A stretch of 64,000 nucleotides of DNA, taken from contig JAQBNN010000280.1 of the NCBI GenBank assembly GCA_028288505.1, positions 1-64,000 on the forward strand. Reading direction: 5' to 3'. The stretch is from Segetibacter sp. (GTDB lineage: Bacteria; Bacteroidota; Bacteroidia; Chitinophagales; Chitinophagaceae). The position numbers and the translations under genes are program-made. Shown here in pieces: positions 4,554 to 39,886 of this stretch. Position 1 is the stretch's first letter. Each line of letters begins with the position of its first letter. The notes beneath the pieces are model-generated. The model did not search any database, had not been told where the DNA came from, and worked only from the letters and a program-made list of their open reading frames with translations.

Positions 4554-4621
4554 GAAATGTGCTTTTTTACTACAACAGCCACATTCAAAAACGATTGATT
4601 TTACCAAGCAACAATGGTCAT

Positions 4622-5524
4622 ATGGAAAACAAAGGACGATCGCATAAAAATATCTGGTACGGCTTAGGGCGGCAACGAATTGAAATCCCTAAACCAGTTT
4701 TAAAATCACGGGTGCTAAATAATACAATACTAAAGCAGCTTTATATTTGCAGCCTGGGCTATTACCCCAAAGCTTCGGGGCACTTTACTTCACGAAAAAA
4801 AGGTTTAGCCGAGAGCTTTCTTTTTTACTGTGTAGACGGGAGTGGATGGTACAAGATCGGAGACAAGCAGTACGAGGTAAAATCGAACGAGTTCTTTATT
4901 CTTCCGCCTCATACTGCACATGCTTACGGCAGTTCTAAAAACGACCCATGGAGCATTTATTGGATCCACTTTGGAGGCGACATCTTACCAGAACTAAACG
5001 CTTCCCAAACTGTTCAAAACCACTTCAAACCTTACCACGTAAAAAGCACAAACGATATCCCTTTCTGCTTTTCTAAAATTTATAAAACCCTTGAGTTAGG
5101 TTACAGTAACGACAACCTAATGTTTGCTAACATGTGCCTCTCGCATTTTCTAACCCTGTTTATTTACAATAGCAGGCACTATGTGGTTAACGCTACTGAT
5201 AGAATTGATTGCGTGGAAAGCGCTATTCTTTACATGCAGGAAAGAATAGATCACAACATTACCCTTAACGAGTTAAGCAAACATTACAACTATTCACCTT
5301 CCCGTTTTTCAAGCTTATTTAAACAGAAGACAGGCTACGCTCCTATAGATTATTTTATACAAATGAAAATGCAGAAGGCCAGCCAGCAATTAGACTTTAC
5401 TGATAAGTCAATAAAAGAAGTTGCTTTAAACCTTGGCTTCGATGATCCCTATTATTTCTCCAGGAGGTTTTCGAAAGTTACCGGCATGTCACCAACTAAA
5501 TACCGTGCGATTAATAAAGATTAA
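4622..5524 (+). CDS. AraC-family transcriptional regulator (cupin sensor plus HTH)
   Basis: C-terminal double HTH (ITLNELSKHYNYSPSRFSSLFKQKTGYAP...IKEVALNLGFDDPYYFSRRFSKVTGMSPTKYR); MENKGRS at 4622 is a more plausible start than 4559. Confidence 0.9.
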   Translation: MENKGRSHKNIWYGLGRQRIEIPKPVLKSRVLNNTILKQLYICSLGYYPKASGHFTSRKKGLAESFLFYCVDGSGWYKIGDKQYEVKSNEFFILPPHTAHAYGSSKNDPWSIYWIHFGGDILPELNASQTVQNHFKPYHVKSTNDIPFCFSKIYKTLELGYSNDNLMFANMCLSHFLTLFIYNSRHYVVNATDRIDCVESAILYMQERIDHNITLNELSKHYNYSPSRFSSLFKQKTGYAPIDYFIQMKMQKASQQLDFTDKSIKEVALNLGFDDPYYFSRRFSKVTGMSPTKYRAINKD

Positions 5525-5687: not shown

Positions 5688-6767
5688 TCATCTTAACAGG
5701 TCTTGTACGACAATGCCCCCAGCCGAGCTTGAACTGTAAGCAGCTTCAACACAAGCCATTGTATAAATACAATCTTCTACCGAATTGTTAGCATGTAGAA
5801 TTGTTCCTTCTTTAGCCAACATTACCTGTGCCATACTGCCAATAAATGCATCAGGAAACCACGTGCCTTTGATGTTTAAAATTTTCCATTCTGGCTCCTT
5901 ACCTTCTTCTAAGATCACATATTCAAATTCGTCTGGTACGCCAGTTGGATAATTCATAAGAACGCCGAGCTTTATTTTAATAGCGCCTTTTGTTCCTTCA
6001 AATTTTATGTACGAATGTTGGTTCTGTAATCCATACTGGTGGCAATGGTTTGTATGTATACTTGCCCGTATCATTTCTCCATAATCCATAATAATGTTTG
6101 AACGAACAGAGGCTAGCTCCTTCATCGAGGGGTGCTTTACCGTTTTTGCATAAACACCTGCTGGATTTCCTAAAAAGCTTCTGACAAGATCAATGTAATG
6201 GATGCTGTGGTATAAGATTTCAACACGGGGAAGGTCGTTTAAAAAGGTCCACATATTCCAGGGAGTAAACACATTTACATTTACTTCTACATCGCATAGG
6301 TCGCCTACTAAACCCTGATCAATAATATTCCTGGCGGCATTTATAAAAGGCGCATAACGAAGTTGGAAGTTTACCGCTGCAATGAATTTTTTTTCTCTTG
6401 TTAACGTAAGTATTTTTTTTGCTTCATTTAAATCGTCACCCATCGGTTTTTGCATTAAGACTGCCGCTCCGTCGGGTAGTTGCTTTAGCACATGTATAAT
6501 TGCAGAACCTGGTAATGCTATATCAAAAACAACATCTCCTTTTGCTTCATCAAGCATACCAGCGAGACTTTCATAAACTTTGGGAATATTAAACCGCTCG
6601 GCTGTAGTGGTAGCTTTTTCAATATTAATATCGTAGATGCCTGCAACATTAAAACCTTCGATTTTATATGCTGGTAAGTGTGCATCGTTCACAATTCCGC
6701 CTGCTCCAATGATGTAAATATCGTGGGGATGAAGAGGCATTTGTTGATGATAAGAAATGGATGGCAT
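5688..6767 (-). CDS. Gfo/Idh/MocA-family oxidoreductase
   Basis: N-terminal GAGGIVNDAHLPAY nucleotide-binding segment and QKPMG motif. Confidence 0.88.
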   Translation of the reverse strand: MPSISYHQQMPLHPHDIYIIGAGGIVNDAHLPAYKIEGFNVAGIYDINIEKATTTAERFNIPKVYESLAGMLDEAKGDVVFDIALPGSAIIHVLKQLPDGAAVLMQKPMGDDLNEAKKILTLTREKKFIAAVNFQLRYAPFINAARNIIDQGLVGDLCDVEVNVNVFTPWNMWTFLNDLPRVEILYHSIHYIDLVRSFLGNPAGVYAKTVKHPSMKELASVRSNIIMDYGEMIRASIHTNHCHQYGLQNQHSYIKFEGTKGAIKIKLGVLMNYPTGVPDEFEYVILEEGKEPEWKILNIKGTWFPDAFIGSMAQVMLAKEGTILHANNSVEDCIYTMACVEAAYSSSSAGGIVVQDLLR

Positions 6768-6840
6768 CTTACTGGCTATACTATTATTGATTGCAATATA
6801 CCTGTAAAAAGCAGCTGAGCGCTGCGTAGTATTACTTATT

Positions 6841-6870
6841 GTACAAGAGTGCGACGCAAGTAAAGCTTAA
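6841..6870 (+). repeat. Intergenic repeat core (GCAAGTAAAGC subtype)
   Basis: GTACAAGAGTGCGACGCAAGTAAAGCTTAA; reverse complement matches 5617-5646 at 29/30. Confidence 0.9.
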
Positions 6871-6909
6871 TAGTAGTACTTAAGACTGGTACAAAAAATT
6901 TCTTACCTA

Positions 6910-7962
6910 TTAAGAAGCATTGACAGTACCCAAATAATTACCGTAAGTTATTATAACAACAGCGGTGATTAGTACAAACAGTGCAACCGCTAGCAATCGT
7001 GTTGTTCGCGTAGTACTCTTGATCCATTCTTTTAAAACAAGACCTGCGATGGCGCTAAAAAGCACAAGCATGATCATGTGAATTGCCCAACTACTAAACT
7101 TATAATTTCCCATGCGAACATGTCCTAAGCCATAAAAGAAGAACTGACCGTACCAAAGGAAACCTGTTAGTATGGCCATAGCAAAATTGAGGGACAAGCC
7201 GCCGCCATTTTGATTACTGACAATACCTGAATATTCTTTGAAGGTGTTGTGCTTTTTATGCAGGTACAAACAATAAAGCATTGTAGTAATAAAGGCACCA
7301 GTGTTTGAAAAAATATAAATGACGTTGCTCTGTAAATTGCCAGCGCCATGTTTGGCCGCAATAGCAGCAATCGGCTGGCCCTGATCGATAGAGAAACCGT
7401 ACACGGCTGATAGTATGCCCGCGAGTATGCAGATAGGTAAACCTTTGGCAAGGGAGAAGGAAGTATCAACTTTATTTTTTTGCAAGTCGAGCTCTTTAAA
7501 TCTGCCCGCCATGCCACAAAGAATGATACCGAGCGCACCCATTGCTATTCCATACATCAACCAATCGGAACCAGCACTTTGAAGTACTTTACCAAGCTGG
7601 CCTTTTACTAATGGTGGCAAGAGCGTACCAAGCACGCAAGAGATGCCAACAGAAATAGCATAGGTTAACGAAAAACCAACATAACGAATAGCGATACCAA
7701 AAGCAGTTCCACCAATGCCGTACGCAGCACCTAATGCAAATGTCTTAAACATTACACCTGGTGGAGCTTCACTTAATACCTGTGCAAGATTTGGAATAGT
7801 CAGCCATGCAATAACAAGCGGCAGCAGGAACCAGCAGACAAATGCCTGTGCTAACCAATAGGTTTGCCACGACCATTTAACTACTTTTTTTTGAGGTGTG
7901 TAACATAATGCAGCAGACGAAGCTCCGACCGCGTGAAACAAGACTCCTGTTATAACATCCAT
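6910..7962 (-). CDS. rhaT: L-rhamnose/proton symporter RhaT-like permease
   Basis: 350 aa multi-spanning protein; RhaT-like start (GVLFHAVGASSAALCYTPQKKVVKWSWQTYWL). Confidence 0.85.
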   Translation of the reverse strand: MDVITGVLFHAVGASSAALCYTPQKKVVKWSWQTYWLAQAFVCWFLLPLVIAWLTIPNLAQVLSEAPPGVMFKTFALGAAYGIGGTAFGIAIRYVGFSLTYAISVGISCVLGTLLPPLVKGQLGKVLQSAGSDWLMYGIAMGALGIILCGMAGRFKELDLQKNKVDTSFSLAKGLPICILAGILSAVYGFSIDQGQPIAAIAAKHGAGNLQSNVIYIFSNTGAFITTMLYCLYLHKKHNTFKEYSGIVSNQNGGGLSLNFAMAILTGFLWYGQFFFYGLGHVRMGNYKFSSWAIHMIMLVLFSAIAGLVLKEWIKSTTRTTRLLAVALFVLITAVVIITYGNYLGTVNAS

Positions 7963-7977
7963 AGGTTGTGCAATCGT

Positions 7978-8835
7978 TTATGGCAGGTTATAAAATCTTT
8001 TTGCATTTTGATAAAAGATTTTTTCCTGCTCGTTATCATCTAATAGTTCTGTAATTATAGTTTGGTAAGCCTTCCATGTTTTTGTGTAAGACCCTGCAAG
8101 AAGCGAGACGGGCCAATCGCTTCCGCAAAAACACCTGTCAGTTCCAAAACGATCAAGGGCAAATTCGATGTAAGGCTTTAGATCTTCCGTTGACCAACCT
8201 TCGAAATTCTTTGAGGCAGTACCTAGCCCTGATATTTTAATGAAAAAATTAGGATGTTGTGCTGCTTCACTCATTAGTGTTCCCCACACTCCGAACTTTT
8301 CTCTTGTAGCAATGGGAGGTTGGTTAATATGATCAAAAACCATCCTTAATCCAGGCACCTTTGAAGCTACTTTTAAAGCAGTTTCTATGTGCTGTGGTAA
8401 GATACCAACGAGATCGAAAGAAAGATTGTGGCCTGCAAGCAGTTTAAGGCTTTCAATCACTTCAGCTTGCAATAACCATTTGTCGTCTGCTTCAATATGT
8501 ATTAAATGACGAATGCCTTTAAAATATTTATTTAATAAATACTTTGAGGATAATATATCCTCCGTTTCTTTTGGTTTTAGAAGTGGCAGCCACCCTACTA
8601 CGCCGGTTATCCAATTGCTGTTTGCTGCTGCTTCGAGCATACAATCAGTATCCTCAAAATTATTAGCGGATTGCACAAGAACGCCTTCAGTGATTCCTGC
8701 TGTAAGTCGGGCTTCACTTAATTCATCAACTTTATAAGTGCGATTTAAGATCGTTGTATCTCCATTAAGCCAGCTATACTCCGCCTTAGCCAGATCCCAA
8801 ACGTGTATGTGTGTGTCAATTATCTTATGGGGCAT
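7978..8835 (-). CDS. Amidohydrolase-family lactonase-like hydrolase (rhamnono/fucono-lactonase type)
   Basis: IIDTHIHVWDLAKAEYSWL start and CFCGSDWPVSLL C-terminal motif. Confidence 0.8.
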   Translation of the reverse strand: MPHKIIDTHIHVWDLAKAEYSWLNGDTTILNRTYKVDELSEARLTAGITEGVLVQSANNFEDTDCMLEAAANSNWITGVVGWLPLLKPKETEDILSSKYLLNKYFKGIRHLIHIEADDKWLLQAEVIESLKLLAGHNLSFDLVGILPQHIETALKVASKVPGLRMVFDHINQPPIATREKFGVWGTLMSEAAQHPNFFIKISGLGTASKNFEGWSTEDLKPYIEFALDRFGTDRCFCGSDWPVSLLAGSYTKTWKAYQTIITELLDDNEQEKIFYQNAKRFYNLP

Positions 8836-8892
8836 GCAAGCAATAAATTATCAGGTCTCTGATGTCTTTTTAAATTCTAATTTTATTTATTC

Positions 8893-10041
8893 TTACGCAA
8901 TTAATCCAAATTGTTTTTCAATTTGTTTGTTGTGCTCACCCAGCAAAGGAGCTCCAACATCTGAAGTAAAAATTTCACCGTCAATCCTTATAGGACAACG
9001 GGTTGTTTTTATAGAAAGGCCATTACTCGTTTTTACTTTGATCTCCATGTTAAGACTCTTGTAGCCTTTCTCTTTCACCAGGGTATCGTAATCCATCACT
9101 TTGGCGCACCATATATCAGCGGGGTCTAAAATAGAAAGCCAATACTCGGTGCTTTTTGTTTCGAGATGCTTTGCAAGAACTGCTTTTATTTCATCACGCT
9201 TTACAAACCAGTCGGTACTGTCGGCATACACTAATAAGCCGCCGCATGAGAGCAGCTTTGCTAGTGCAGTGATGTTTCCCATAGCAAGGGCAAGGTATCC
9301 ACTCATCGTTTTATATATTCCATATGGAGCTGAAATGTAAGCATGACCATTATTTACAGAACTACGCACAGGTAGCTGGTGTCCGTCGTTATAAAAGCAG
9401 GTCAACACTTCAAATTGAAAATCCAAAATACTTTCCAGCATACTAACCTGTATTAATGCACCTTTACCAGTAATACCACGCTGATATAATGCAGCAAGAA
9501 TACCTTGTGCAATGTGAGTACCTGCTAATATATCAACAACAGCCACACCCATTGGTGTAGGGTTATCGCTTTCATTTTTAGTTAGCCATGTTAAGCCAGA
9601 AACAGCTTGCAATAGTAGATCTTGTCCTGGCAAATCTTTCCACGGTCCTTCATTGCCATACCCACTTACTTCGCCATATACTATCAGTGGATTGATTGCT
9701 TTCACTGTTTCATAGTCCAGGCCAATTCTGTCCATTACTCCTGGTCTAAAATTATGAAGCATTACATCTGCTTTTGCAAGCAATTGCTTAATCCTGGCCA
9801 GGTCAGCTGGATTTTTAAAATCGGCAGCATAACTTTGCTTATTGCGATTGATAGCGTGAAAAATTGTAGATTCGCCTTCAATTTTTATGTCTGATACATA
9901 CAGCTCCCTGCAAATATCACCGCTACCTGGTTTTTCAATTTTTATAACCTGAGCCCCCATGTCAGCCATTCGAAGTGCCGCCGAAGGGCCTGATAGGAAC
10001 TGGCTAAAGTCTATAACTACAACATCCTGCAAAGGTTTCAT
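8893..10041 (-). CDS. CaiB/BaiF (class III) CoA-transferase, copy 1
   Basis: VVVIDFSQFLSGPSAALRMADMGAQVIKIEKPGSGD; HNFRPGVMDRIGLDYE; candidate catalytic Asp in GVAVVDILAGTHIAQGILAAL. Confidence 0.92.
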   Translation of the reverse strand: MKPLQDVVVIDFSQFLSGPSAALRMADMGAQVIKIEKPGSGDICRELYVSDIKIEGESTIFHAINRNKQSYAADFKNPADLARIKQLLAKADVMLHNFRPGVMDRIGLDYETVKAINPLIVYGEVSGYGNEGPWKDLPGQDLLLQAVSGLTWLTKNESDNPTPMGVAVVDILAGTHIAQGILAALYQRGITGKGALIQVSMLESILDFQFEVLTCFYNDGHQLPVRSSVNNGHAYISAPYGIYKTMSGYLALAMGNITALAKLLSCGGLLVYADSTDWFVKRDEIKAVLAKHLETKSTEYWLSILDPADIWCAKVMDYDTLVKEKGYKSLNMEIKVKTSNGLSIKTTRCPIRIDGEIFTSDVGAPLLGEHNKQIEKQFGLIA

Positions 10042-11189
10042 TAGCTAATGTTTAAAATTTCTTCCAAAACTTTTTTGTTGTGTTCTCCCAGCTGGGGAGC
10101 GGGGGTACTTGAAAATATTTTTTCACCGTTTACACGTATCGGACAGCGTGTTGTTACTATCTTCTTCCCATGTAAGGTATTCAATGTCTGTTCCATTTCA
10201 AGGCATCTATAAGCTTCATGTTCGGTTAGCCTCTTCCAGTCTAATACTTCCATTGCCCACAAGCCTTCTTCGTGCAATTTACTAATCCAGTGGACAGAGG
10301 TATTATGCTCAACGTGCGCAGAGAGGACCCCTTTTATCTCATCTCTCAAACCAAATGTATCTTCCTGCGTAAAGGCTCCTAATGCCTCACAGTTCAAGGC
10401 CTTGGCTAATTGCTGTATTTTGCCCATGGCGATTGCAATGTATCCGTCCAAAGTTTTATAAATCCCATAAGGTGCACTTAACAAGGGGTGTCCATTACTG
10501 ATACCGCTACGCTTGGGGAGCTGTCCACTGGAATGATAAGTGGTCAACAGTTCGAACTGGAAGTCTAATAAACTTTCCATCAGGCTCAATTCTATTAATG
10601 CGCCTTTGCTTGTTTTTTGCCTTCTTATTAAAGCACCCAGTATACCTTGTACTAGCTGAGCGCCACACAGGCTGTCTGCTATTGCTAAACCAAACGGAAC
10701 AGGTGCATCGTTTTCATTTCCGCTCGTATAAGTAAGCCCCGTCATCGATTGTAATAACAAATCTTGTCCGGGCCTGTCTTTCCATGGCCCTTCTTTTCCG
10801 AAGCCGCTTATTTCTGCATAAACCATGCGAGGGTTAATAGCGTGCACCTTATTAAAATCAAGGCCTACTTTCTCCATTATGCCGGGACGAAAATTATGTA
10901 TTAAAACATCTGCCTTTTCAATTAATTTTTTTACAATAATAATATCTTCTGTGCTTTTAAGATTAGCGGTAAAGCTTTCCTTATTCCTGTTAATAGTATG
11001 AAACAACAAACTGCTGTCGTCTGACCAAAGGTTTTTAATGGCAAGCTTTCTACCTGCATCTCCTGTACCAGGACGTTCAATTTTTATTACCCTTGCCCCA
11101 AAATCTGCCAATCGCAGTCCTGCCGATGGGCCAGACAAGTATTGACTGAACTCAAGCACTATCAATCCCTCTAGTGGTAGTTTACTCAT
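10041..11189 (-). CDS. CaiB/BaiF (class III) CoA-transferase, copy 2
   Basis: Paralogue of the adjacent ORF; candidate catalytic Asp in GLAIADSLCGAQLVQGILGAL. Confidence 0.92.
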   Translation of the reverse strand: MSKLPLEGLIVLEFSQYLSGPSAGLRLADFGARVIKIERPGTGDAGRKLAIKNLWSDDSSLLFHTINRNKESFTANLKSTEDIIIVKKLIEKADVLIHNFRPGIMEKVGLDFNKVHAINPRMVYAEISGFGKEGPWKDRPGQDLLLQSMTGLTYTSGNENDAPVPFGLAIADSLCGAQLVQGILGALIRRQKTSKGALIELSLMESLLDFQFELLTTYHSSGQLPKRSGISNGHPLLSAPYGIYKTLDGYIAIAMGKIQQLAKALNCEALGAFTQEDTFGLRDEIKGVLSAHVEHNTSVHWISKLHEEGLWAMEVLDWKRLTEHEAYRCLEMEQTLNTLHGKKIVTTRCPIRVNGEKIFSSTPAPQLGEHNKKVLEEILNIS

Positions 11190-11199
11190 GACGGTACAC

Positions 11200-12354
11200 T
11201 TAATTTTTTTTTGATAAGCTTTGCTTATACAATTGATTTATTTCATTTAAAACATCTCTTTGGTTCCCTTCATTTAACAGGTACTGTTGTATGCAGTCAC
11301 CGGCATGATCCTGAAATAATAAGTACCCATTATACCTGGGCCTGATATAACCTCTTTCCATGATCGGCAGTACATTGGTAAAGAAATTATTTGTAAGCGT
11401 GTTTGCCTTACTGCTTTTCCATGCCCAAGCATGACCAGGTTGTCCGCCGTGTTCTACGTAAAAAGTAGATTGGCAGCTACCACCTACAACCATTTCTGCA
11501 AATACTAATGCGGCGTCTTTGTTTTTACTAAAAGCAGAAATAGCTAAACCAGTTCCACCAATGGTACTTCTTAATTTTCCTCCTTCATCAAAATATACAA
11601 GGTCAGTATAAGTAAGAATGTTATTAGTATATCCCACCCTTGAATAATTGGAATAGCAATAAGCAAATGGGCAATACCAGTAGTCGTTGGTAGTCGTCAT
11701 TTGTTCTGCTACTGCTATCGGGTTATAACCAAACATCTTCTTATCTACTGCACCCCATAATTCACGCATTGTTTCTAATGCAAGCAAACCTATTTCTTCA
11801 TCAATTACTTCGTCCTCATTTGCAAAAGGTTGTGTTCCGTGTGCAATGCAGAACATATAAAAGTTCATCAGCAGGTCGATTGGGATTGCCGGTACTGCAA
11901 CCTTTCCTTTTTTGGCAAGTGCAATCACTTCGTCCCATGTTGTTGGAACGTCTGCATTATGCTTGACAAAAAGATCTGCGCGATAACTTGCTGCTGGTGT
12001 AGCAGCATCAATTGCTAAAGCCCATTGATGGCCCTTGTAATTATAACTCTCGTGAGAACCGCCAACAGAATTCTCTAACTGGTCCTGCAAATAATCTTCT
12101 GATAAATATTGCTCTAACGGTAATACACAGTTTGTTGCAGCAGCGCAACCAACCCATGGATGGTCTATAATTAAAAGATCATACTCTTCCGTTAGCTTTT
12201 CAATTGGAAAATCGGCAAATTCCTGCAACGTTCTTTTCTTCCAATTAATTTCAACATCCGGGTACAACTCACTAAAACGCTGCGAAGCAGCAAGCAGTGG
12301 CGTAATGCCACGGCTATGTCCCCACGTTATACCTTTTAAAATTGTTGAAGCCAT
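11200..12354 (-). CDS. Family 1 extracellular solute-binding-protein homologue without visible signal peptide
   Basis: 384 aa; periplasmic-binding-protein segments (SRGITPLLAASQRFSELYPDVEINW; VPTTWDEVIALAKKG; GGTGLAISAFSKNKDAALVFAEMVV); N-terminus MASTILKGITWGHSRG is not a signal peptide. Confidence 0.75.
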   Translation of the reverse strand: MASTILKGITWGHSRGITPLLAASQRFSELYPDVEINWKKRTLQEFADFPIEKLTEEYDLLIIDHPWVGCAAATNCVLPLEQYLSEDYLQDQLENSVGGSHESYNYKGHQWALAIDAATPAASYRADLFVKHNADVPTTWDEVIALAKKGKVAVPAIPIDLLMNFYMFCIAHGTQPFANEDEVIDEEIGLLALETMRELWGAVDKKMFGYNPIAVAEQMTTTNDYWYCPFAYCYSNYSRVGYTNNILTYTDLVYFDEGGKLRSTIGGTGLAISAFSKNKDAALVFAEMVVGGSCQSTFYVEHGGQPGHAWAWKSSKANTLTNNFFTNVLPIMERGYIRPRYNGYLLFQDHAGDCIQQYLLNEGNQRDVLNEINQLYKQSLSKKN

Positions 12355-12357
12355 CGT

Positions 12358-12810
12358 TTATCTATTTTGCTCTCCCTTTCTTTCCGACAATAAAATATGT
12401 TCACACAACATCACCAACTCACCGTTTTGGTTAAACGTTTCTACCAATTCGGTAATCAACCCATATGCCGGTTTCTTATGGTCTTTCTTATTTTGTATGG
12501 TCACCTTCACCTTAATGGTGTCGCCAATAAAAACTGGTTTAATAAAACGTAAGCGTTCATAGCCATACGTCATCGCAACTTCATTAATCACGTTGGCAGT
12601 CATGCCTACACTTACACTAAATATTAATGTACCGTGAGCAATGCGCTTTTTAAAAGGCTGCGTTTTACACCATTCTTCATCCATATGATGTGGAAAAAAA
12701 TCTCCCGTTTGCCCGGCGTGTATTACAATGTCGGTCTCGGTAATAGTACGTCCCAACGTTTCTCTTACGTCTCCAATTTCAAATTCTTCAAAGTATTTTT
12801 TCTCAATCAT
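12358..12810 (-). CDS. MaoC-family hot-dog hydratase/dehydratase
   Basis: [42 protein letters not shown] and [15 protein letters not shown]. Confidence 0.88.
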
Positions 12811-13040: not shown

Positions 13041-15320
13041 CTACTTACGCTGCAACACAATCTCGCCACCTTTCTTAAAAGTCAAACCAATAAAGCCACC
13101 TGATAACTTTTTAACTGTAGCACCTTTACAAGTAGCAACAGTATATTTATTAAAGGGTAATTTCAACTTTGTTGTTCCACCTTTCTCTGAAACAATTTTC
13201 ACTTCATTAAGTGCACCTAGTACTTTCTTAGCGCTTACTAAATAAGCACCTTCGGCTCTTAATGTTTTAAACGAAACATCTTTCCATGTTGCAGGTATTG
13301 CAGGCATAACTTCAATAAACCCTGCGTAACTCTGCAACAACATTTCCTGTAAAGCTGCAGCTGAAGCAAAATTTCCTTCAAGGGTAAATGGCCGGTAAGT
13401 ACGCGTTGAATAACCTTGTTTTGACTGGTCGCCATTAACATGAAAACTATTAACCGAACAAAAAGCATTACTGAAAATAGTTAGCGCTTTAGCAGCACCT
13501 TCACCATCTTTAGCCCTTGCTTTTAAATTTGCAAGCCACGAATAAGAGTAGCCATTCCAATAATCTGGTCCAAGCTTATCTAACTGGTTAATTGTATTCT
13601 TTATTATCTGTTGGCTCTTAACGCCATCCTCCCATTTAATTAAACCGAGAGGATGAATAGCCATAGAATGAGAGAAGTGACGATGCGATTCATCGTAAGC
13701 AGAATCAGGGGCGTACATCAACTCGTTGTTCTTTGACAACGCGTAATCTCTAAACTCTGAATGAAGCTTTTTATACTTTACAACTTCATTAGTTAAACCT
13801 TGTTTAGTTGCCATTTCAGCAGCAGCAGATAGAACAAATTTTATTAAAGACAGATCGTAGTTAGTTGTTGTAGGAAACCACGCGCCAATTGAATTATTAT
13901 TAATCTCAGGGCTTGAACTTATAGGCAATTCTCTAAAGCCGCTTTTATCTTTTACAGTAATTGCTTCGAAATATTTTGCTACTTCTTTGAACCATGGGTA
14001 AGCGCTTTCTTTTAAAAAATTATCATCATTACTATACTTCCATTGCAGGTAGTAGTGGTGCGCCAACCATCCTGAAACTGTTGGAGACAATGCATACTGA
14101 ATCCAACCGCCCATTTCTGTTCCATTTAATGTTGTTACGCCCGGAACGTTTATCCCTTCAGTAGCAAAGTAGAGCTTTGTATAACGCTTATAGTTTACTT
14201 TGTTGCTATTGAGATGATCAATAAAAGCTAACCCTTCTTCTAAGTGGTTAGCGCTGTATGCAGGCCAGTAACTCATCTCTGTATTGAGGTCATGGTGATA
14301 GTCTCCTTTCCATGGAGGAAGTCTTCCGTTATCTGCTGTCCAAACACCTTGCAATAATATCGGAGGTGCACCCCTTCGAGTAGAAGAAGCGAACTTATAC
14401 TGGTCACGGTACCATTGATTTTCTAAAGAAGTATCAGGAACATGTAAAGATGACTTACTCCAAAAATTTTTCCACCAGTTGTTGTGTGTTGTAAGATCTG
14501 TAGTAAATGTTCTTTGTAACGCTTGCTTAAGTACCGTTTCGGCAGCTACATTATTCTTATCAAAGTTGGACGAGACACTCCAAACCCCTTCAATTGTATT
14601 TGCATTTAAGTTCTTCCAACTAACATTGATATCGTAATAAAACTCGTTGTAGCCCGGTTGATGGTAACTGATGGAGTTATTGTTGCTTATTATGGTTCCA
14701 TCTGCATACCCAAGTTTTGCGGGATCGTTACTCTTTAATGAATCGAGAGGTTTGTTTGTAATGTTTTTATAATTAGGTGTCTTTAACATTGGAGTAAAAC
14801 CGGAACTTATATTTTCGAAACGAAACCAACCAATTGGTTGCGTGGCGTGAACAAACGTTTTTAGTACAATACCGTTACTCCATCTTACAGTACAGGTCGC
14901 ATCTTTTAAAGACAACTGAACAGAGAGTACGTCGCCCCAATCTTTACTTTCAAACTCTAATGCACCGCCTGAAATTTTTGAGGGTCCGGCTTCTTTATCA
15001 TACGGTACATCAAAGTATTGTTGTACGATACCGTAATCGTTTTTCTTTACCTGTTCCTGTACCCATTGGTAACTAAACTCTTTTCTATGCAAACCTTTCA
15101 TTGGTCGTTCGTCCCATAAATCGGAACGGTCTAATGCAAAACGAAGACGACCGTCTTTTTGATAGACCAAAGCACCAACCATTCCATTACCTAATGGAAT
15201 TGCTTCATCCCAAACCTTTGCGAGGGTATCAAACTTTAAATCATGTTTTGATTCAGGCTGGGCCATTGCATTGCTTGTTAGCAACAGTATGAACACCACT
15301 TGTATCAAAAATTTCTTCAC
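13041..15320 (-). CDS. GH95-like six-hairpin glycoside hydrolase
   Basis: EAIPLGNGMVGALVYQ start, DLNTEMSYWPAYSANH, FTLEGNFASAAALQEMLLQSYAGFIEVMPAIP. Confidence 0.72.
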   Translation of the reverse strand: MKKFLIQVVFILLLTSNAMAQPESKHDLKFDTLAKVWDEAIPLGNGMVGALVYQKDGRLRFALDRSDLWDERPMKGLHRKEFSYQWVQEQVKKNDYGIVQQYFDVPYDKEAGPSKISGGALEFESKDWGDVLSVQLSLKDATCTVRWSNGIVLKTFVHATQPIGWFRFENISSGFTPMLKTPNYKNITNKPLDSLKSNDPAKLGYADGTIISNNNSISYHQPGYNEFYYDINVSWKNLNANTIEGVWSVSSNFDKNNVAAETVLKQALQRTFTTDLTTHNNWWKNFWSKSSLHVPDTSLENQWYRDQYKFASSTRRGAPPILLQGVWTADNGRLPPWKGDYHHDLNTEMSYWPAYSANHLEEGLAFIDHLNSNKVNYKRYTKLYFATEGINVPGVTTLNGTEMGGWIQYALSPTVSGWLAHHYYLQWKYSNDDNFLKESAYPWFKEVAKYFEAITVKDKSGFRELPISSSPEINNNSIGAWFPTTTNYDLSLIKFVLSAAAEMATKQGLTNEVVKYKKLHSEFRDYALSKNNELMYAPDSAYDESHRHFSHSMAIHPLGLIKWEDGVKSQQIIKNTINQLDKLGPDYWNGYSYSWLANLKARAKDGEGAAKALTIFSNAFCSVNSFHVNGDQSKQGYSTRTYRPFTLEGNFASAAALQEMLLQSYAGFIEVMPAIPATWKDVSFKTLRAEGAYLVSAKKVLGALNEVKIVSEKGGTTKLKLPFNKYTVATCKGATVKKLSGGFIGLTFKKGGEIVLQRK

Positions 15321-16444
15321 TTATTATTTTTATTAAACGTCACACTACTTTTACCGAGGTCTTTTGAAGTAGCTACTGCAATGCCTCGCTGGTCTTTTTT
15401 GTTTACTGCATTGTAAAAATGATAAACGACTCCTTTATGCTTTACGACAAAAGATTTATGAGCAAACTTTGCATCATATTCTTCTGTAGAATTAATCAGG
15501 TCAGCACCGTTCCAATCTGTCCAGTTAACGAGGTCGTAAGAGCAGGCAAAGCGATTAAAGGCGTCTTTTCTTGGTTCCCAAAAGGCACCGAAATAAAACA
15601 TTACCCAAACGTCCTTAATCTTCTGAATAACAGCATCGCCGGTTATGCCGGTTCTATGATGCATTACAGGTTCTTCTTTAAAACGTTTCCACGTAACCAT
15701 GTCGTTTGACACAGCCATTCCTATTCTTTCGAACCACCTGGTCTTAATATTATTTACCGCCGAATCGCCGTTTGCATTATAGTACATTACAAATGGGTAA
15801 CCGGTCTTTTTCTTTTTATCCCAGATGACTGTGCTTTTAAACTGTTTCTTATTTTCCCACCACCTTACATCTTTATCAGTTGATGCAAGTATTGGCTTCG
15901 GTAAACGCTCAACTTCATGAGGCTTTGTTGGATCTGCTTTTGTAAAAGCCATTCCTAAAGAAAGTAACCCTGCTTCATAACCTGGGGTGTTTCCACCAAA
16001 ATAACTCATCCAGTACTTGTCTTTATATTGTTGCCATTTATAATTTCCACCCCACTTGTTATCCTGTAAAGCAACATAGCCAGCTTTATGATGTGCATCC
16101 CACGCGGTTGTATCACTTGAAAACGACATCATCTTCCCCAATGGTTTCCAGTTCAACAAATCATCGCTTTGTGATAACCAAGTTTCATAACCTCTACCAT
16201 CAAAAACAATGTAGGTCATGTACCATTTATTTCCTTTTCTGAAAACAGTTGGACAGTCTACTTTTTTCGAGTCATTTTCAGGTACTAAAATCAAACCATA
16301 TTTATAGGGTGTCTTCACTTCCTCGTAAATGGATTGCATTATGTTTTGAGGAACGCTGTCTTTTTTTTGCGCCCATATAATGTTGCTTAAAAGCAATAAG
16401 ATTATTAAAAGTCTTGAAGAGCTAGCCTTCTTTACTATTTGCAT
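15317..16444 (-). CDS. Five-bladed beta-propeller glycosidase (GH43/GH130-like)
   Basis: CPTVFRKGNKWYMTYIVFDGRGYETWLSQSDDLLNW; repeated propeller segments; signal peptide. Confidence 0.65.
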   Translation of the reverse strand: MQIVKKASSSRLLIILLLLSNIIWAQKKDSVPQNIMQSIYEEVKTPYKYGLILVPENDSKKVDCPTVFRKGNKWYMTYIVFDGRGYETWLSQSDDLLNWKPLGKMMSFSSDTTAWDAHHKAGYVALQDNKWGGNYKWQQYKDKYWMSYFGGNTPGYEAGLLSLGMAFTKADPTKPHEVERLPKPILASTDKDVRWWENKKQFKSTVIWDKKKKTGYPFVMYYNANGDSAVNNIKTRWFERIGMAVSNDMVTWKRFKEEPVMHHRTGITGDAVIQKIKDVWVMFYFGAFWEPRKDAFNRFACSYDLVNWTDWNGADLINSTEEYDAKFAHKSFVVKHKGVVYHFYNAVNKKDQRGIAVATSKDLGKSSVTFNKNNK

Positions 16445-26362: not shown

Positions 26363-29122
26363 TTACTCAAACAACCAGTCGAGCTCTTTCTTTACTCCGC
26401 CCGGAATTAAACCTGCATCATATCCTTTTATAAGCTCTGTATCATTAACAAATCCTAAAATTAAAGCGGTTCCTTTAGCAAGTGTAAGCGTGTTGTTGCC
26501 GGCCTTAAAAGAATAAGTGTGAATGTTAACAGGCGGCATACCGGACACAAGAATTGCATTGCGAATCTTTGCTTCGGCCTGGCCGTAATTATCTGCACTT
26601 GCATCAATCTCGAGTTGCGGAGGTTGCAAGAACCTTCTGTCTTTTGAATTAAAATAACCTACCAAAACCTTTACAGGTTTAGGATTATTGAATTTAATAA
26701 CAGTCCCTTCAGCTATCTGCTTCGTCTTGCTCAACTTTAATGCGTTCAACTCTCTTAGTTCTTCGGCGTAGTCTTTAATATAGGTTGCTGTATCAGTGAA
26801 AAGGTCTTTACCGGTGCTTACGTTATAAAATGATTCAGGTTTTTTTATTAAGGTAACATCAGCATTTTTAAAGGTTGGCTTCTTATTTACTGCCACGTTT
26901 GTTTGAGGTCTTTTTAATGAATCAATTTTGATTTTAAAAGTGGCTAACTCTTGCTCGTATATGGGCAATAACTCGACCCATGTTTTCATTTTACCATTGT
27001 CGCCTCCTACTGGTATTTTACGTTGTTGGGTTTGCATACTGTTAGCATACAAGTAAGTGTCCTTTGTTAGGTTCGCTAAGATTCTATAGTGTTCAACACT
27101 TTTTTCTAAATGTGGCAACGCTTGCTCAAGGTCTTTTATATCATTAGAATATTTATAACGTAAAACCCTTAATGCCGCTTCTGCCTTTTCAGCAAAGTTG
27201 TTGGCTAAGGCGTTATAGATATGCATGTCATTCTTTATACGTCTGAACTCTTCATTATTTTTACTGATAGATGGTGCTGCTAATTCAATTGCATCTACAG
27301 CTTTTTGACCGTGCGCTTTTACTTCATTAATTATTTGAACAGGTGTTTCTCCAACATGCTTTTCTTTCTTCCATTCACGCTCTGCATACTCTGTCAACAT
27401 TTCTCCTTCGGGTCCTTCAGAATTATACAACAACGTGAACAGGCCATAGCGGAAAGGGTTGACCAGTTGAGTCATCAACATGCCTAAAGTAAGCGTTTGT
27501 CGGTTACCATCTGTTATTCCAAAACGACGCAAAAGCTTTGGCGCTATCTCACCGGTTTCTTCATAAGCGGTTAAAATATGCTTGCCATTTGTGGAGTCTG
27601 TTCCGTATTTGCTTCCAATAATATTACTCCAATATTTCACTTCATTATTACGGTTGCGATTCGCATTCCATGCATAACGGCTCCACGCCTTATACCAAAT
27701 CCAGTCGCGGTCTATTTGTAAGATTCGAGGGTTGGCATTGTCAGCAGAATAAGGCCAATCCCAATAAGAAGATTCAGGATATAAGTGTAAACCATTTCCA
27801 TGATGCACTTTATGCATTGCTTGTACACTCTTTTGGATAAAGTCAGCAGAACCATAACGGAAAGGCTCGAGATTAGCAAGTATGTGAACGTTCTCGATTT
27901 GAACTGTTCCAATAGCAGCAAGCTTACGGTGCAACTCCGCCCAGGGACCACGAGGCGTGTAAGTAGTTAATGCCTCACCGTTATACTTCGCTTCGGTATA
28001 TAGATTTTTATATAGTGGCAGGGCAGCCTTCATTACCATCTCTGCATCAGTATCGTGAGCACGCAAAACTATCGGGGGTTCACCTGTTTTCCCGAGTGCT
28101 TTCAATCCATCCTTTACGCCGGGAATAATAGTTTTTGTAAACCAATCAACATCGTCTTGTCCTACGCCTTCCATTGCTTCACCTAAGGCTACCATCAAAC
28201 CAACATTCGGGTATTTTTCAACAAAGGCTGCTATTGATTTACGGGTATAATCTGCAATTAAAGGAATGATAGGACGATTGCGGTCCTGTGTTTTGATGTT
28301 GTGCTTTTCAGCAAATGGTTGTGATACGATGATGTTGTAAAACATCTGGATAACCCATATTCCACGCTTATCGGCTTCCTGCGTGAGAAACGTAAACATC
28401 TCTTCATTCGCTTTGAACGTTGAATCATTTACTTCAACAGCATAAGGATAATCTTTCAATTTTACCAATGAAGCAAAAGGATGTCCGTTCCATAAGTACA
28501 AAGAATTCATTCGGTTTTCAACCAATGAATCAAGGTACTTCGTCCATAACGCCTTATCATAAAACCATGGAAAGTTTTCAGGAGTGTAAGGGTATTCGTA
28601 TACATGTCTGCCCGGTAAATAAACGGGCTTTGACATACCTATTGCTGTACCTCGCAACACCATCTCAGGTTTATCAGTAAACGATATGTTCTTAGGTAAT
28701 TGCTTATTCTCTTTAATCCTTTCTGCCAACTCAATACAACCATATAAGGCACCTGAATTATCAGAACCTATTATAATGATATTCCCTTTATCAGAATTAA
28801 TTTTAAATCCTTCCTTGCCTGGAAATGTACTATAACCTGCCTGAAAGCTTCTTAATAGCTTATCTCCAAGAGTTCCAACAATTATTAATGGTTTAGATGC
28901 TGAAGCAATTTTACTTTCATGTGCTTTCTTAACTGTATAACCTGCATCCACTAAGCTTTTAGATAATTTATCAACACCGAAAATTAAGCGTGCATGCGGT
29001 TGTTCAGCGAGTATGATTGTAACAATCTTCGGGCTTCCGGCACTATTGCTTTGCGCAGATAGCTGCAAGAGCGAACCAAATAAAATCGATAAAAAGAAAA
29101 AAAAGAACCTTTTCACATTCAT
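26363..29122 (-). CDS. GH67/GH115/GH20-type two-domain glycosidase-like protein, family not assigned
   Basis: N-terminal GNIIIIGSDNSGALYGCIELAERI (GH67N/GH20b-like) followed by a TIM-barrel-like region. Confidence 0.55.
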   Translation of the reverse strand: MNVKRFFFFFLSILFGSLLQLSAQSNSAGSPKIVTIILAEQPHARLIFGVDKLSKSLVDAGYTVKKAHESKIASASKPLIIVGTLGDKLLRSFQAGYSTFPGKEGFKINSDKGNIIIIGSDNSGALYGCIELAERIKENKQLPKNISFTDKPEMVLRGTAIGMSKPVYLPGRHVYEYPYTPENFPWFYDKALWTKYLDSLVENRMNSLYLWNGHPFASLVKLKDYPYAVEVNDSTFKANEEMFTFLTQEADKRGIWVIQMFYNIIVSQPFAEKHNIKTQDRNRPIIPLIADYTRKSIAAFVEKYPNVGLMVALGEAMEGVGQDDVDWFTKTIIPGVKDGLKALGKTGEPPIVLRAHDTDAEMVMKAALPLYKNLYTEAKYNGEALTTYTPRGPWAELHRKLAAIGTVQIENVHILANLEPFRYGSADFIQKSVQAMHKVHHGNGLHLYPESSYWDWPYSADNANPRILQIDRDWIWYKAWSRYAWNANRNRNNEVKYWSNIIGSKYGTDSTNGKHILTAYEETGEIAPKLLRRFGITDGNRQTLTLGMLMTQLVNPFRYGLFTLLYNSEGPEGEMLTEYAEREWKKEKHVGETPVQIINEVKAHGQKAVDAIELAAPSISKNNEEFRRIKNDMHIYNALANNFAEKAEAALRVLRYKYSNDIKDLEQALPHLEKSVEHYRILANLTKDTYLYANSMQTQQRKIPVGGDNGKMKTWVELLPIYEQELATFKIKIDSLKRPQTNVAVNKKPTFKNADVTLIKKPESFYNVSTGKDLFTDTATYIKDYAEELRELNALKLSKTKQIAEGTVIKFNNPKPVKVLVGYFNSKDRRFLQPPQLEIDASADNYGQAEAKIRNAILVSGMPPVNIHTYSFKAGNNTLTLAKGTALILGFVNDTELIKGYDAGLIPGGVKKELDWLFE

Positions 29123-36340: not shown

Positions 36341-39300
36341 CTATTGCACCTCGAAGTAATCAAGCCCTACCGGCCTAGCACTTAGGGCCTGCAATACAAT
36401 CGTGTAATTACCTGCATTTATATACGAGCCGGTGTTACTTGAAACCGTGGCCCACTTAGTTGTAGTAGGCGGAAACTCAAGCCTTTCTTCTTTCATAATT
36501 GTACCATCGGCAGCAAGTATTTTCATAACCATTTGGGAAGCCTTACCCGATTGGTTAATGTACCTGAAGTGAAGCGAATACATATCGGCAACACCCGGAG
36601 AGATGGACCATTGGACTGCGTCGTTGTTTTTATTTATTTGTACATAAGCCTTGCCACCAAATGAATCTTTAGCAACACGGCCCCCTTTTAAAACTGCCTT
36701 TTCGGCCTCGTAACGAATAGTTGGTTTAAGATCGTAGGGTGGCTCTATAGAAGAAACGGGGTTAACAAATACAGAGTAAGGCGAGATTGATTTGTCGCCA
36801 GCAGACAAACTACCTATATTTAAAACAGCACCTTTAGTAAACCGCTTCGTAAACAGGCGATAACGGGTTCCGCCATTCTTGTCCGTTTCAAAATACTTTG
36901 TTGATTCTGCAAAGGGTGTAAGCCAGTTAGGCTTTGCTGAAACAGAAGATCCTGTTCCTACATATATATCAGCTTCTTCGTTTAATGTAAAACTTAAAGC
37001 CTCAACAGGTTTGTTAAGGGATGGCTGAATCCATTCAGCACCGTAGAGCTCGGCTGGTAAGCTGCTGAAGGTGGACGGGTCATCAGCGTAAATTTTATCG
37101 CCAGTGCTGAGCCATGTTTTAGCATGAAAGCTTTTAGAATCGCTACTATTAAGGTTTGCAATAAGCCTTTGAGGGCCTGGAGCAGGTTTTAATTTTTGAT
37201 TAAGTGATGCAATGGCAATTGCAGAAATAATAGCTTGGCCCGAAGCAATTCTTGGAAAAGAAATAGTAAGCTTTCCGCCCGTTACATTTGCTGTTACCGT
37301 CTTCTTTAGTGCTTTATCATGGCCCACTTCTTTCCAGATATCAACGTCTTGTAATACCGTTTTTCCATTAACGGCTACATCAAACAAACGCCACCCTGTA
37401 CAATCCATTCCTCCTCCTGTGCCGTACCATGGTTCGGTAAAAAAGAGATCGATCATATAATTACCGTCGGCAACAGGAAAATCATAAGTAAGCTTATCCA
37501 TTCCATAACGAAAGGTTTGAAAAAGAGGGGAATCCTTTGTCCCACTTATGGGGTCATTCGTACTTCGCTGGCTGGCATAGAAGGCAGGGAAATTATACTC
37601 ATCCGTCCACGACTTTGATCCCCATGTATTTTTATTGGCTTTGCCGTCAGCCATCCAAAGGTTGCCATTTTCATCTTTGTAATCAGGGCCACCGCAGTTT
37701 ACCCGGTACCAATAATTGTAGCCGCTTTGTGGCTTTAGTAATGGCTTTGCATCTTGCTGTAAAGTACTATAACCCGGAGCGGCGGGTAGATGATTTAAAA
37801 CAATATAATCGGTTGCCACAACTTTGCCTCCAACCCTTCCTTCGGCATATAAAACATTGTAATTAACCGGCACTTTATCCCACTGGAAATGGGTACCAAT
37901 GCTGCCTCTTGTTCTCTTGCCGAGTGAAACGGATCTCACGTCATTAAACAGTTCTACTTCATCGCAATTTGAATAGACCGTAATACTATCTTTTATTCCA
38001 GGAGCCATCCACCTACTTGGCCATGTGTGTGACACTATGTACACCATAGGCTCTTTGTCTTTTGGTGCATAATTAGCACGGAACATGTAGAAGACGTCAA
38101 GTGGTTCTCCCCATGGAGTTAGCAAGCCTTTGTAATTAACAGGCCCTATCCTGTCAAGTTCTCTAAAACCCTCGCCCCCTTGTACCCTACCCGGATTTTC
38201 GTGTGAAGTAAAGAGCCAGTGAAAATGACCTGCAGTACTATCTTTAACAGACTCTGCTAATCGAACTTTCATTTCCATTAGTTGTGTCATCCGGTCTTCG
38301 CTTAATATGCCGTTTTGCTGGAAGGGACCCGAAGTGTGTAGATCCAGGCTTCGCCATGCTCCATACTCTCCTACCAACAACTGCCGCTTTAAATCTTCTC
38401 CATAAGTAGCAGGATTACCGCCGTAAGTACCTGTCCAGTTTTGCGGTACATTCCAGTCAGTTCCTTCGCCACCATTGCAGGTTGTAACAGGGCGCTGAAT
38501 GGAAGCAGTAGGATCGAGTTGCCTGATAAACTCTGTACATTCTTTAGCGAAATCTTCGGGTATCTTACTTTCATTTTGCAGCCCCCACATTACTACTGAA
38601 GGGTTATTTCGGCGCTCCTTTACCCACTCTGCAATAAGCGCTTTAAAGTTTGTACGAAACTCAGCGTTATCATACCATGCGTGAGCAGAAAACTGGGTCC
38701 AGTTTAATATGCCCAGCTTATCCCAGTAGTCGTGGTACAAAAGATTATGTGGTTGGTGTGCATCGCGAAAAGCATTATAACCTGCTGCTTTTATTTGCAT
38801 CACCCTTGTTTTGATTTGTTCTTTGTCAAAAGCATGGCTCTTGCCCATCATGTGCTCATACTCGCAGGTACCATTTATAAAAACCGGCTTGCCGTTTAAT
38901 AGAAATTGTTTTGAAGCAGAGCTAGCGGAAGGCCAGGTAACCCAACGTATACCGTAAGGCGTTTTAAGTTGATCAATTACTTTTCCGTTTTCTACAAGAT
39001 CTGTAACAACCGTATAGAGATAAGGATCTTCCAACGACCAAAGGTGTGGGTTGGTAATGGAAGGGAACCTTTGTTTCGTTTGTAACGTGGTGTTAGGGGC
39101 AACCGTAATTATATTTTTTACCTGGGCAACAGTTGAACCTTTAGCATCAACCAGCTTATTTATAACAGAAACGATACGAGGCGTTCCCTTATAGTTTCGT
39201 AACTCAGTTTCTACATTTAATTGAGCAGAGGCTGAAGAAATTTTTTCGTCATTCCAGATGTGAACACCGAAGGGTTCTATGCGTACCGGGTCTGTTGCTA

Positions 39301-39886
39301 TTAAATGAACCGGGCGGAAAATGCCGAGGGGTTGAGAACCTTCACTCCAGCCACGATCGTCTGAACAGCCTCCGCACAGCCAGGGAAGATCATTGATCAT
39401 TGAAGGATGATCTGCACGAACAGCTAGAATATTTAACCCGTTTAAGTGAATAGCATTTGTAACATTGAGGGTAAAAGTTGTACGGCCACCAGCATGCTTG
39501 CCAACCTGCTTTCCATTTAACCACACGGTGGCGTAAGAACCGACGCCTTCGAAAAGTAGAAAGTATTGCTTTCCTTTATTTTGGCTGGTTAACTTGAAGT
39601 TTTTACGATACCACGCATAGCCATGTTTGTTACCATGGCGTAACCTTCGATAGCCTTCGTATTGATCCCAGTTGTGAGGTACGGTTACTTGCTTCCAGTT
39701 TTTATCGTTAAAAGCAGCGGTATGAAAACTGGCATAATTACCAGTATTGGTTTCTGCACTTACTGTGCGCCAGTTGCTGGATAAATTGATGTTTGTACGA
39801 ATGCCAGGCTGGCTATACAAGTTGCCGGCAGGAGTAATGCAAGCAAGAATAAAAAGGCTACATAAAAATCTGAAAGTATTTTTCAT
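36341..39886 (-). CDS. GH2-family hydrolase with C-terminal malectin-like and CBM6/35-like regions
   Basis: VPHNWDQYEGYRRLRHGNKHGYAWYRKNF; VMWGLQNESKI; LLVGEYGAWRSLDLHTSG; C-terminal IRYEAEKAVLKGGRVAKDSFGGKAYVQ. Confidence 0.85.
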   Translation of the reverse strand: MKNTFRFLCSLFILACITPAGNLYSQPGIRTNINLSSNWRTVSAETNTGNYASFHTAAFNDKNWKQVTVPHNWDQYEGYRRLRHGNKHGYAWYRKNFKLTSQNKGKQYFLLFEGVGSYATVWLNGKQVGKHAGGRTTFTLNVTNAIHLNGLNILAVRADHPSMINDLPWLCGGCSDDRGWSEGSQPLGIFRPVHLIATDPVRIEPFGVHIWNDEKISSASAQLNVETELRNYKGTPRIVSVINKLVDAKGSTVAQVKNIITVAPNTTLQTKQRFPSITNPHLWSLEDPYLYTVVTDLVENGKVIDQLKTPYGIRWVTWPSASSASKQFLLNGKPVFINGTCEYEHMMGKSHAFDKEQIKTRVMQIKAAGYNAFRDAHQPHNLLYHDYWDKLGILNWTQFSAHAWYDNAEFRTNFKALIAEWVKERRNNPSVVMWGLQNESKIPEDFAKECTEFIRQLDPTASIQRPVTTCNGGEGTDWNVPQNWTGTYGGNPATYGEDLKRQLLVGEYGAWRSLDLHTSGPFQQNGILSEDRMTQLMEMKVRLAESVKDSTAGHFHWLFTSHENPGRVQGGEGFRELDRIGPVNYKGLLTPWGEPLDVFYMFRANYAPKDKEPMVYIVSHTWPSRWMAPGIKDSITVYSNCDEVELFNDVRSVSLGKRTRGSIGTHFQWDKVPVNYNVLYAEGRVGGKVVATDYIVLNHLPAAPGYSTLQQDAKPLLKPQSGYNYWYRVNCGGPDYKDENGNLWMADGKANKNTWGSKSWTDEYNFPAFYASQRSTNDPISGTKDSPLFQTFRYGMDKLTYDFPVADGNYMIDLFFTEPWYGTGGGMDCTGWRLFDVAVNGKTVLQDVDIWKEVGHDKALKKTVTANVTGGKLTISFPRIASGQAIISAIAIASLNQKLKPAPGPQRLIANLNSSDSKSFHAKTWLSTGDKIYADDPSTFSSLPAELYGAEWIQPSLNKPVEALSFTLNEEADIYVGTGSSVSAKPNWLTPFAESTKYFETDKNGGTRYRLFTKRFTKGAVLNIGSLSAGDKSISPYSVFVNPVSSIEPPYDLKPTIRYEAEKAVLKGGRVAKDSFGGKAYVQINKNNDAVQWSISPGVADMYSLHFRYINQSGKASQMVMKILAADGTIMKEERLEFPPTTTKWATVSSNTGSYINAGNYTIVLQALSARPVGLDYFEVQ

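Follow-up and report, generated by a model that had tools for sequence, protein, structure and literature searches.

A conserved operon with paired CoA-transferases in a rhamnogalacturonan-II locus of Segetibacter: a candidate route for 2-O-methyl-L-fucose

Introduction

The non-phosphorylative L-fucose pathway comprises L-fucose dehydrogenase, a lactonase, a dehydratase, 2-keto-3-deoxy-L-fuconate dehydrogenase and an FAH-family hydrolase. Here we describe an operon in a 64,000-nucleotide stretch of Segetibacter sp. DNA (contig JAQBNN010000280.1, positions 1 to 64,000; the window) that shares with this pathway an importer, a proposed oxidation at C1 and a lactonase, but adds two class III coenzyme A (CoA)-transferases of the CaiB family, a MaoC-type hydratase/dehydratase and a cytoplasmic homologue of solute-binding proteins (SBPs), and has no enolase- or altronate-type dehydratase. 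The operon and the L-fucose pathway share neighbouring genes in Flavobacterium and Alphaproteobacteria, and the two routes probably have their end intermediate in common. We favour, at about even chances, the reading that the operon serves the catabolism of 2-O-methyl-L-fucose (MeFuc), which occurs as a methylated 6-deoxy sugar in chain B of rhamnogalacturonan II (RG-II).

CoA transfer followed by hydratase or dehydratase chemistry, and paired CoA-transferase subunits, are familiar from the CaiB-CaiD carnitine and the BbsEF/SmtAB pathways; those systems act on carnitine, benzylsuccinate and malate/citramalate, whereas the operon described here includes sugar-oxidation genes. The RG-II loci of Bacteroides thetaiotaomicron (BT0996, BT0997, BT0984) are matched in the window by GH137, GH138 and BT0996-type GH2 genes, and in its relatives by GH139. 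BT0996 fuses GH137 to a GH2 β-glucuronidase, whereas the window carries them as separate genes 20 kb apart (15317–16444 and 36341–39886). What the window has in addition is the CoA module, which to our knowledge is absent from B. thetaiotaomicron. In marine bacteria, a P450 demethylates 6-O-methyl-D-galactose (PMC10033563), and so likewise strips the methyl ether off an algal sugar in its free form. That route is oxidative and yields formaldehyde; the operon here lacks an oxygenase and would be expected to yield methanol.

RG-II is conserved in the primary walls of plants and enzymes releasing its sugars are known, yet the papers that we could search described no catabolism of either 2-O-methyl-fucose or aceric acid. 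If our reading is right, the operon would be, as far as we know, the first CoA-dependent sugar pathway. It would cleave a sugar methyl ether without oxygen and tie pectin decay to methanol, and it would account for the odd family of cytoplasmic ‘solute-binding proteins’ that annotations of numerous bacteria from soil and sea place beside CoA-transferases.

Results and discussion

Organization and conservation of the operon

All genes of the operon lie on the minus strand and are transcribed in the order MaoC, SBP, CaiB-A, CaiB-B, amidohydrolase, RhaT and Gfo/Idh (Table 1). An original prediction, made from the sequence of the window, had described tight packing (about 0–60 bp) from RhaT to MaoC, and the gaps from MaoC to RhaT are indeed 3, 10, −1, 57 and 15 bp; a longer gap of 142 bp separates RhaT from Gfo/Idh. 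The RhaT-like permease, lactonase-like hydrolase, two CaiB proteins, SBP homologue and MaoC that it listed are all present, but it missed the Gfo/Idh dehydrogenase inside the same interval. The start that it assigned to RhaT, 5688, belongs to the Gfo/Idh gene, and RhaT spans 6910–7962. The two CoA-transferases are the sole PF02515 genes of the assembly. An AraC-family gene adjoins the operon and is likely to encode its regulator; AraC genes 62–77% identical to it adjoin the module in other loci.

A synteny search, as had been proposed, recovered the operon, unchanged or in variant form, in approximately 100 loci (counts that are not independent, since some loci come from one genome represented twice), with median intergenic distances of −4 to 17 bp in the core. 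Because this many loci, from many genera, keep SBP-CaiB-CaiB with such gaps, the operon is real and conserved, beyond chance grouping. An SBP homologue is encoded by 14 of 248 genomes sampled across the Bacteroidota and by 11 of 61 relatives, and 508 candidate stretches of the genome collection encode a relative. Outside the phylum, relatives were found in Ammoniphilus (L123) and many Alphaproteobacteria. In L123, TRAP transporter, RraA and crotonase genes accompany the SBP and CaiB homologues. Such company would suit general scavenging of RG-II sugars or sugar acids, in which the CoA branch handles a non-sugar acid such as a hydroxy-dicarboxylate and the sugar genes are merely co-regulated. 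The tight, conserved order with RhaT or FucP, lactonase and Gfo/Idh in approximately 100 loci argues against this, and we regard it as very improbable.

Several loci depart from the common arrangement. Crotonase and aldehyde dehydrogenase genes stand in place of MaoC and Gfo/Idh in two module variants (L031:7222–9443 and L038:12870–15128). A natural partial variant, in a genome with both GH138 and GH139 (G206; L138:2786–5277), keeps Gfo/Idh and FucP and has no CaiB, SBP or MaoC there.

Linkage to RG-II and to GH139

Matches to GH138, GH137 and the BT0996-type GH2 mark the left-hand 40 kb of the window as an RG-II locus, which gives an identity to the polysaccharide utilization locus in which the operon had been predicted to lie. 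GH138 and the module occupy an identical set of 11 genomes among the 61 relatives. In the 248-genome phylum sample the module was found in 14 genomes, GH138 in 13 and both in 10 (P = 1.4e-12, a value that overstates independence because the genomes are related), and presence and absence agree across several families. GH138 is encoded in 38 of 109 loci, directly after the Gfo/Idh gene in 27 of them (median gap 39 bp). The GH138 gene beside the module had first been taken for GH115, which would have pointed to 4-O-methyl-glucuronate from xylan; it has no Pfam GH115 match, and that candidate was rejected.

In 14 loci, DUF5703 proteins in or beside the module are GH139 or GH139-like. BT0984 has been described as a 2-O-methyl-α-L-fucosidase that requires the 2-O-methyl group, and GH139 as specific for 2-O-methyl-fucose; 9HYQ and 9HMB are structures of the family (PMC12282258). 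The L128 protein matches 9hyq over its full length (930 bits). The L044 protein (869 bits) is encoded next to MaoC, in the place held in the window by a GH95-like gene. Nine GH139-like proteins encoded next to the module were checked for the catalytic and O2-methyl-pocket residues given in that paper. Every one has Q411, E561 and E641, which belong to the proposed O2-methyl pocket, and also N412, W683 and D723; the aromatic triad is complete in only two. The order SusC-SusD-GH139-module is found in L127 and L128. In Rufibacter and Pontibacter, which have the same arrangement, GH139 is the sole glycosidase directly with SusCD and the module. In operons of the L088 type, the module is accompanied by GH95, GH139-like and GH29 genes, each from an α-L-fucosidase-type family. 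No canonical GH139 was found in the window genome. The gene beside the module there (13041–15320) is GH95-like: it keeps GH95-type motifs and its nearest structures are GH95. At the catalytic base it has HDLN where NxN or QN would be expected.

The MaoC and Gfo/Idh genes of Sinorhizobium, Shinella, Ponticoccus and Martelella lie near an annotated fuconate dehydratase, FAH hydrolase, SDR and mutarotase; a literature search on the Sinorhizobium locus tags found nothing. The linkage to GH139, GH95 and GH29, together with these alphaproteobacterial L-fucose operons, points to a fucose derivative, best 2-O-methyl-L-fucose. The plant-sugar-acid substrate of the original prediction is narrowed accordingly, the comparative context favouring a fucose derivative over rhamnose, galacturonate and generic aldonic acids.

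Active sites and limits of specificity

The catalytic residues of the operon enzymes are intact. Both CoA-transferases pass the PF02515 gathering cut-off (23.3 bits) that defines class III membership, and the columns of Asp172 in CaiB-A and Asp170 in CaiB-B, to which a catalytic role is assigned from the family motif, hold Asp in 190 of 190 sequences each. CaiB-A and CaiB-B form two distinct clades across Bacteroidota loci, from which we conclude that the pair is old and that both copies have been retained; by analogy, they may work as in heteromeric class III transferases or in a two-step exchange. The structures nearest to CaiB-A are YfdE (4hl6) and SUGCT (9br6).

In MaoC (189 bits to 4ffu) the dyad is conserved as Asp37 in 92 of 92 and His42 in 82 of 92 sequences. 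Three loci encode a second MaoC paralogue in which the catalytic His is replaced by Val (L088:7231–7737, L026:3536–4057, L123:12285–12803), possibly a partner subunit of the first. The amidohydrolase, whose nearest structure is 4dlf, keeps its metal ligands His 9, 11 and 169 in 74 of 74 homologues and Asp240 in 71 of 74, and Lys107, His190 and Asp193 of Gfo/Idh are invariant across 89 homologues.

Specificity is less well defined. Gfo/Idh reaches no equivalog cut-off. The amidohydrolase is related to true L-fucono-1,5-lactonases and is not a member (NF052480, 141 bits against an equivalog cut-off of 400). The permease meets the family-level PF06379 model and falls short of true L-rhamnose/proton symporters (best equivalog NF010024, 308 bits against 468). 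Since the equivalog models are missed by wide margins, the families are sure and the substrates are not. A FucP-type major facilitator superfamily permease, or a distant RhaT, replaces RhaT in many relatives; the substitution by FucP suggests that RhaT specificity has probably shifted, as had been suspected.

The equivalog models nearest to the CoA-transferases are succinate-glutarate and mesaconate transferases, the former matched far below its cut-off. Class III CoA-transferases and MaoC proteins often act on dicarboxylates, which would suit another sugar of RG-II chain B, aceric acid (3-C-carboxy-5-deoxy-L-xylose). Oxidation and lactone opening would give a branched hydroxy-dicarboxylic acid, followed by dicarboxylate-type CoA transfer, removal of the 3-OH by MaoC and decarboxylation to a 2-oxo-4-hydroxy acid. 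The linkage of the module to RG-II fits, and elimination from a β-hydroxyacyl-CoA is chemically direct. However, the GH139, GH95 and GH29 enzymes of the operons release fucose-type sugars, the alphaproteobacterial copies lie in L-fucose operons, and no known aceric-acid-releasing enzyme was seen adjoining the module. We consider aceric acid an unlikely substrate, but as a component of the same side chain it is one of the two main caveats to the MeFuc reading.

A cytoplasmic SBP-fold protein

The AlphaFold model of the SBP homologue (mean predicted local distance difference test score 90.5) has the fold of MalE3 and of the trehalose/maltose-binding protein (template modelling scores 0.84–0.85). 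Its N-terminal hydropathy is 0.66, compared with 2.4 for secreted neighbours, none of 104 homologues has a hydrophobic N-terminus that could serve for export, and no ABC permease genes accompany it in the window. Approximately 80 columns are invariant among 15 homologues, and in many relatives a second SBP-fold protein occupies the place of the lactonase. The protein therefore seems to act in the cytoplasm; a literature search for cytoplasmic SBPs with CaiB or MaoC found nothing relevant. At L053, L054, L059 and L068, a homologue 68–69% identical occurs without CaiB, surrounded by genes for PhyH dioxygenases, a sodium symporter and proteins of the enolase family and of the mannonate dehydratase type; the SBP is thus separable from the CoA chemistry.

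A separate set of plain L-fucose genes

Elsewhere in the genome, contig C175 carries FucP, a mutarotase and an altronate-dehydratase-type enzyme, and contig C306 an SDR, an FAH hydrolase and a fuconolactonase homologue. According to work cited in PMC11199699, other bacteria use enzymes of the altronate dehydratase family in their routes for L-fucose and L-galactose. The CoA module is therefore probably an addition for a substrate that the plain route cannot take. FAH genes are present in 12 of the 14 module genomes, against 30 of the 234 others in the phylum sample. In one locus, a frameshift that may be an assembly error interrupts the SDR gene lying upstream of FAH (L136:1501–2271).

The module might instead degrade L-fucose or L-galactose that RG-II supplies in plain form, CaiB and MaoC being a CoA-dependent substitute for fuconate dehydratase. 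Its FucP and fuconolactonase-like genes are compatible with this, as is the finding of a canonical L-fuconate dehydratase in just one of the 14 module genomes. We nevertheless think it quite improbable, given that the window genome and G033 have altronate-dehydratase-family enzymes with FucP and mutarotase, and that in Sinorhizobium and Shinella a fuconate dehydratase gene adjoins those of the module. The standard rhamnose isomerase route was discarded, because the whole assembly, like the window in which its absence had been noted, lacks rhaA; the isomerase and kinase of the window are a xylose isomerase and a xylulokinase-like protein.

Proposed pathway for MeFuc

The outline originally predicted (oxidation, lactone opening, CoA activation and a hydratase step) fits the operon and is distinct from the standard rhamnose route; its catalytic steps, like their order and MeFuc as the substrate, we infer from gene content and context. 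MeFuc would be imported by RhaT (FucP in relatives) and oxidized at C1 by Gfo/Idh, and the amidohydrolase would open the lactone to 2-O-methyl-L-fuconate. Acid-sugar dehydratases turn a free 2-OH into a keto group. Ordinary fuconate dehydratases would thus be unusable, as the 2-O-methyl group blocks the hydroxyl they need, and for this reason we propose that the two CoA-transferases form a CoA thioester, recycling CoA from the product. The thioester would acidify the C2 proton, and MaoC could then take this proton and expel the 3-OH to give a 2-methoxy-2-enoyl thioester, an enol ether. Its hydrolysis would release methanol and 2-keto-3-deoxy-L-fuconate. Enol ethers of the 2-alkoxyacrylate type are hydrolysed by isochorismatase-type enzymes, which provides a precedent for this release. 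The SBP-fold protein may handle an intermediate in the cytoplasm, either as a ligand carrier or as the enol-ether hydrolase. 2-Keto-3-deoxy-L-fuconate would join the L-fucose route encoded elsewhere in the genome (SDR, then FAH-family hydrolase) and end as pyruvate and lactate. Put generally, sugar demethylation free of O2 and cobalamin would proceed from an aldonic acid through a CoA thioester, made by a paired class III CoA-transferase, to methanol by way of MaoC, with a cytoplasmic SBP fold as enzyme or intermediate carrier. We advance this general scheme tentatively, at somewhat short of even chances.

Lyase-type CaiB relatives include DddD (PMC5395668), the CoA-transferase/lyase of dimethylsulphoniopropionate (DMSP), in which the thioester is used to remove a methylated leaving group; CaiB-family proteins can therefore help in such a removal, although DddD acts at the β carbon of DMSP, a non-sugar acid. 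The same precedent suits a different 6-deoxyhexose, O-methylated (at O3, for instance) or modified in some other way, from which the thioester would directly expel methanol by β-elimination, much as DddD removes dimethyl sulphide from DMSP. The chemistry of MaoC and CaiB would be better matched by such a sugar than by a 2-O-methyl ether, and marine and rhizosphere homologues of the module come without RG-II enzymes in the loci seen. Against this reading, GH139, the sole methyl-fucosidase family found beside the module, has been described as specific for 2-O-methyl-fucose (PMC12282258), and such a substrate seems to us rather unlikely.

Several observations weigh against MeFuc. Its methyl ether is α to the acid and would not be directly expelled by a thioester, so that hydrolysis of the enol ether has to be assumed, a step for which the operon lacks a classical enzyme. 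The specificities given to the transporter and the enzymes are predictions. Linkage to GH138 indicates RG-II and not which RG-II sugar. Of the 14 genomes with the module in the phylum sample, four are without GH138 and four without a strong GH139; three genomes carry both GH138 and GH139 and lack the module. The window genome (assembly 94.7% complete) has no true GH139, its sole match to the family being partial and of 24 bits, and the complete congener G250 has the module and no true GH139. Finally, SBP homologues are also found beside mannonate-dehydratase-type genes without CaiB (L053; Microvirga).

Feature coordinates and neighbouring genes

Table 1. Positions and profile or structure matches of the operon, its adjoining regulator and the RG-II enzymes of the window
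Feature	Position	Strand	Evidence
AraC-family regulator adjoining the operon, likely its regulator	4559..5524	+	PF12833 76 bits, PF02311 62 bits
Gfo/Idh/MocA dehydrogenase, proposed C1 oxidation of sugar to lactone	5688..6767	-	PF01408 51 bits
RhaT-family sugar/proton symporter, proposed importer	6910..7962	-	PF06379 185 bits
Amidohydrolase-2 lactonase, proposed lactone opening	7978..8835	-	PF04909 (Amidohydro_2) 138 bits
Class III CoA-transferase, CaiB-B clade	8893..10041	-	PF02515 315 bits
Class III CoA-transferase, CaiB-A clade	10041..11189	-	PF02515 313 bits
SBP-fold protein, cytoplasmic, without signal peptide	11200..12354	-	SBP_bac_1 51 bits
MaoC hydratase/dehydratase	12358..12810	-	PF01575 90.8 bits
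GH95-like glycosidase directly upstream of MaoC	13041..15320	-	Glyco_hydro_95_cat 178 bits, partial DUF5703_N 34 bits
GH137 β-L-arabinofuranosidase (RG-II chain B)	15317..16444	-	5mt2 428 bits; BT0996 model NF049877 531 bits
GH138 α-D-galacturonidase (RG-II chain A)	26363..29122	-	NF049878 1534 against cut-off 1300; 6hzf BPa0997 1037 bits
GH2 β-glucuronidase part, BT0996-type RG-II enzyme	36341..39886	-	NF049877 1496 bits, model positions 365-1400

Genes for other sugars adjoin the module in some relatives. OiaX- and OiaK-like D-apiose genes (a RuBisCO-like oxo-isoapionate decarboxylase and a kinase) and a third gene lie directly downstream of it in L096 (16682–20006), L125 and L126. Loci of the Flavobacterium type contain GH141, and one GH141 protein bears a C-terminal L-rhamnose mutarotase (rhaM) domain (L029:560–3058). 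In the window itself, positions 40157–63433 have the look of a xylan locus: they encode xylose isomerase and proteins resembling xylulokinase and glucuronoyl esterase, and an oxidative pentose-phosphate set (pgl, zwf, gnd) sits inside this part.

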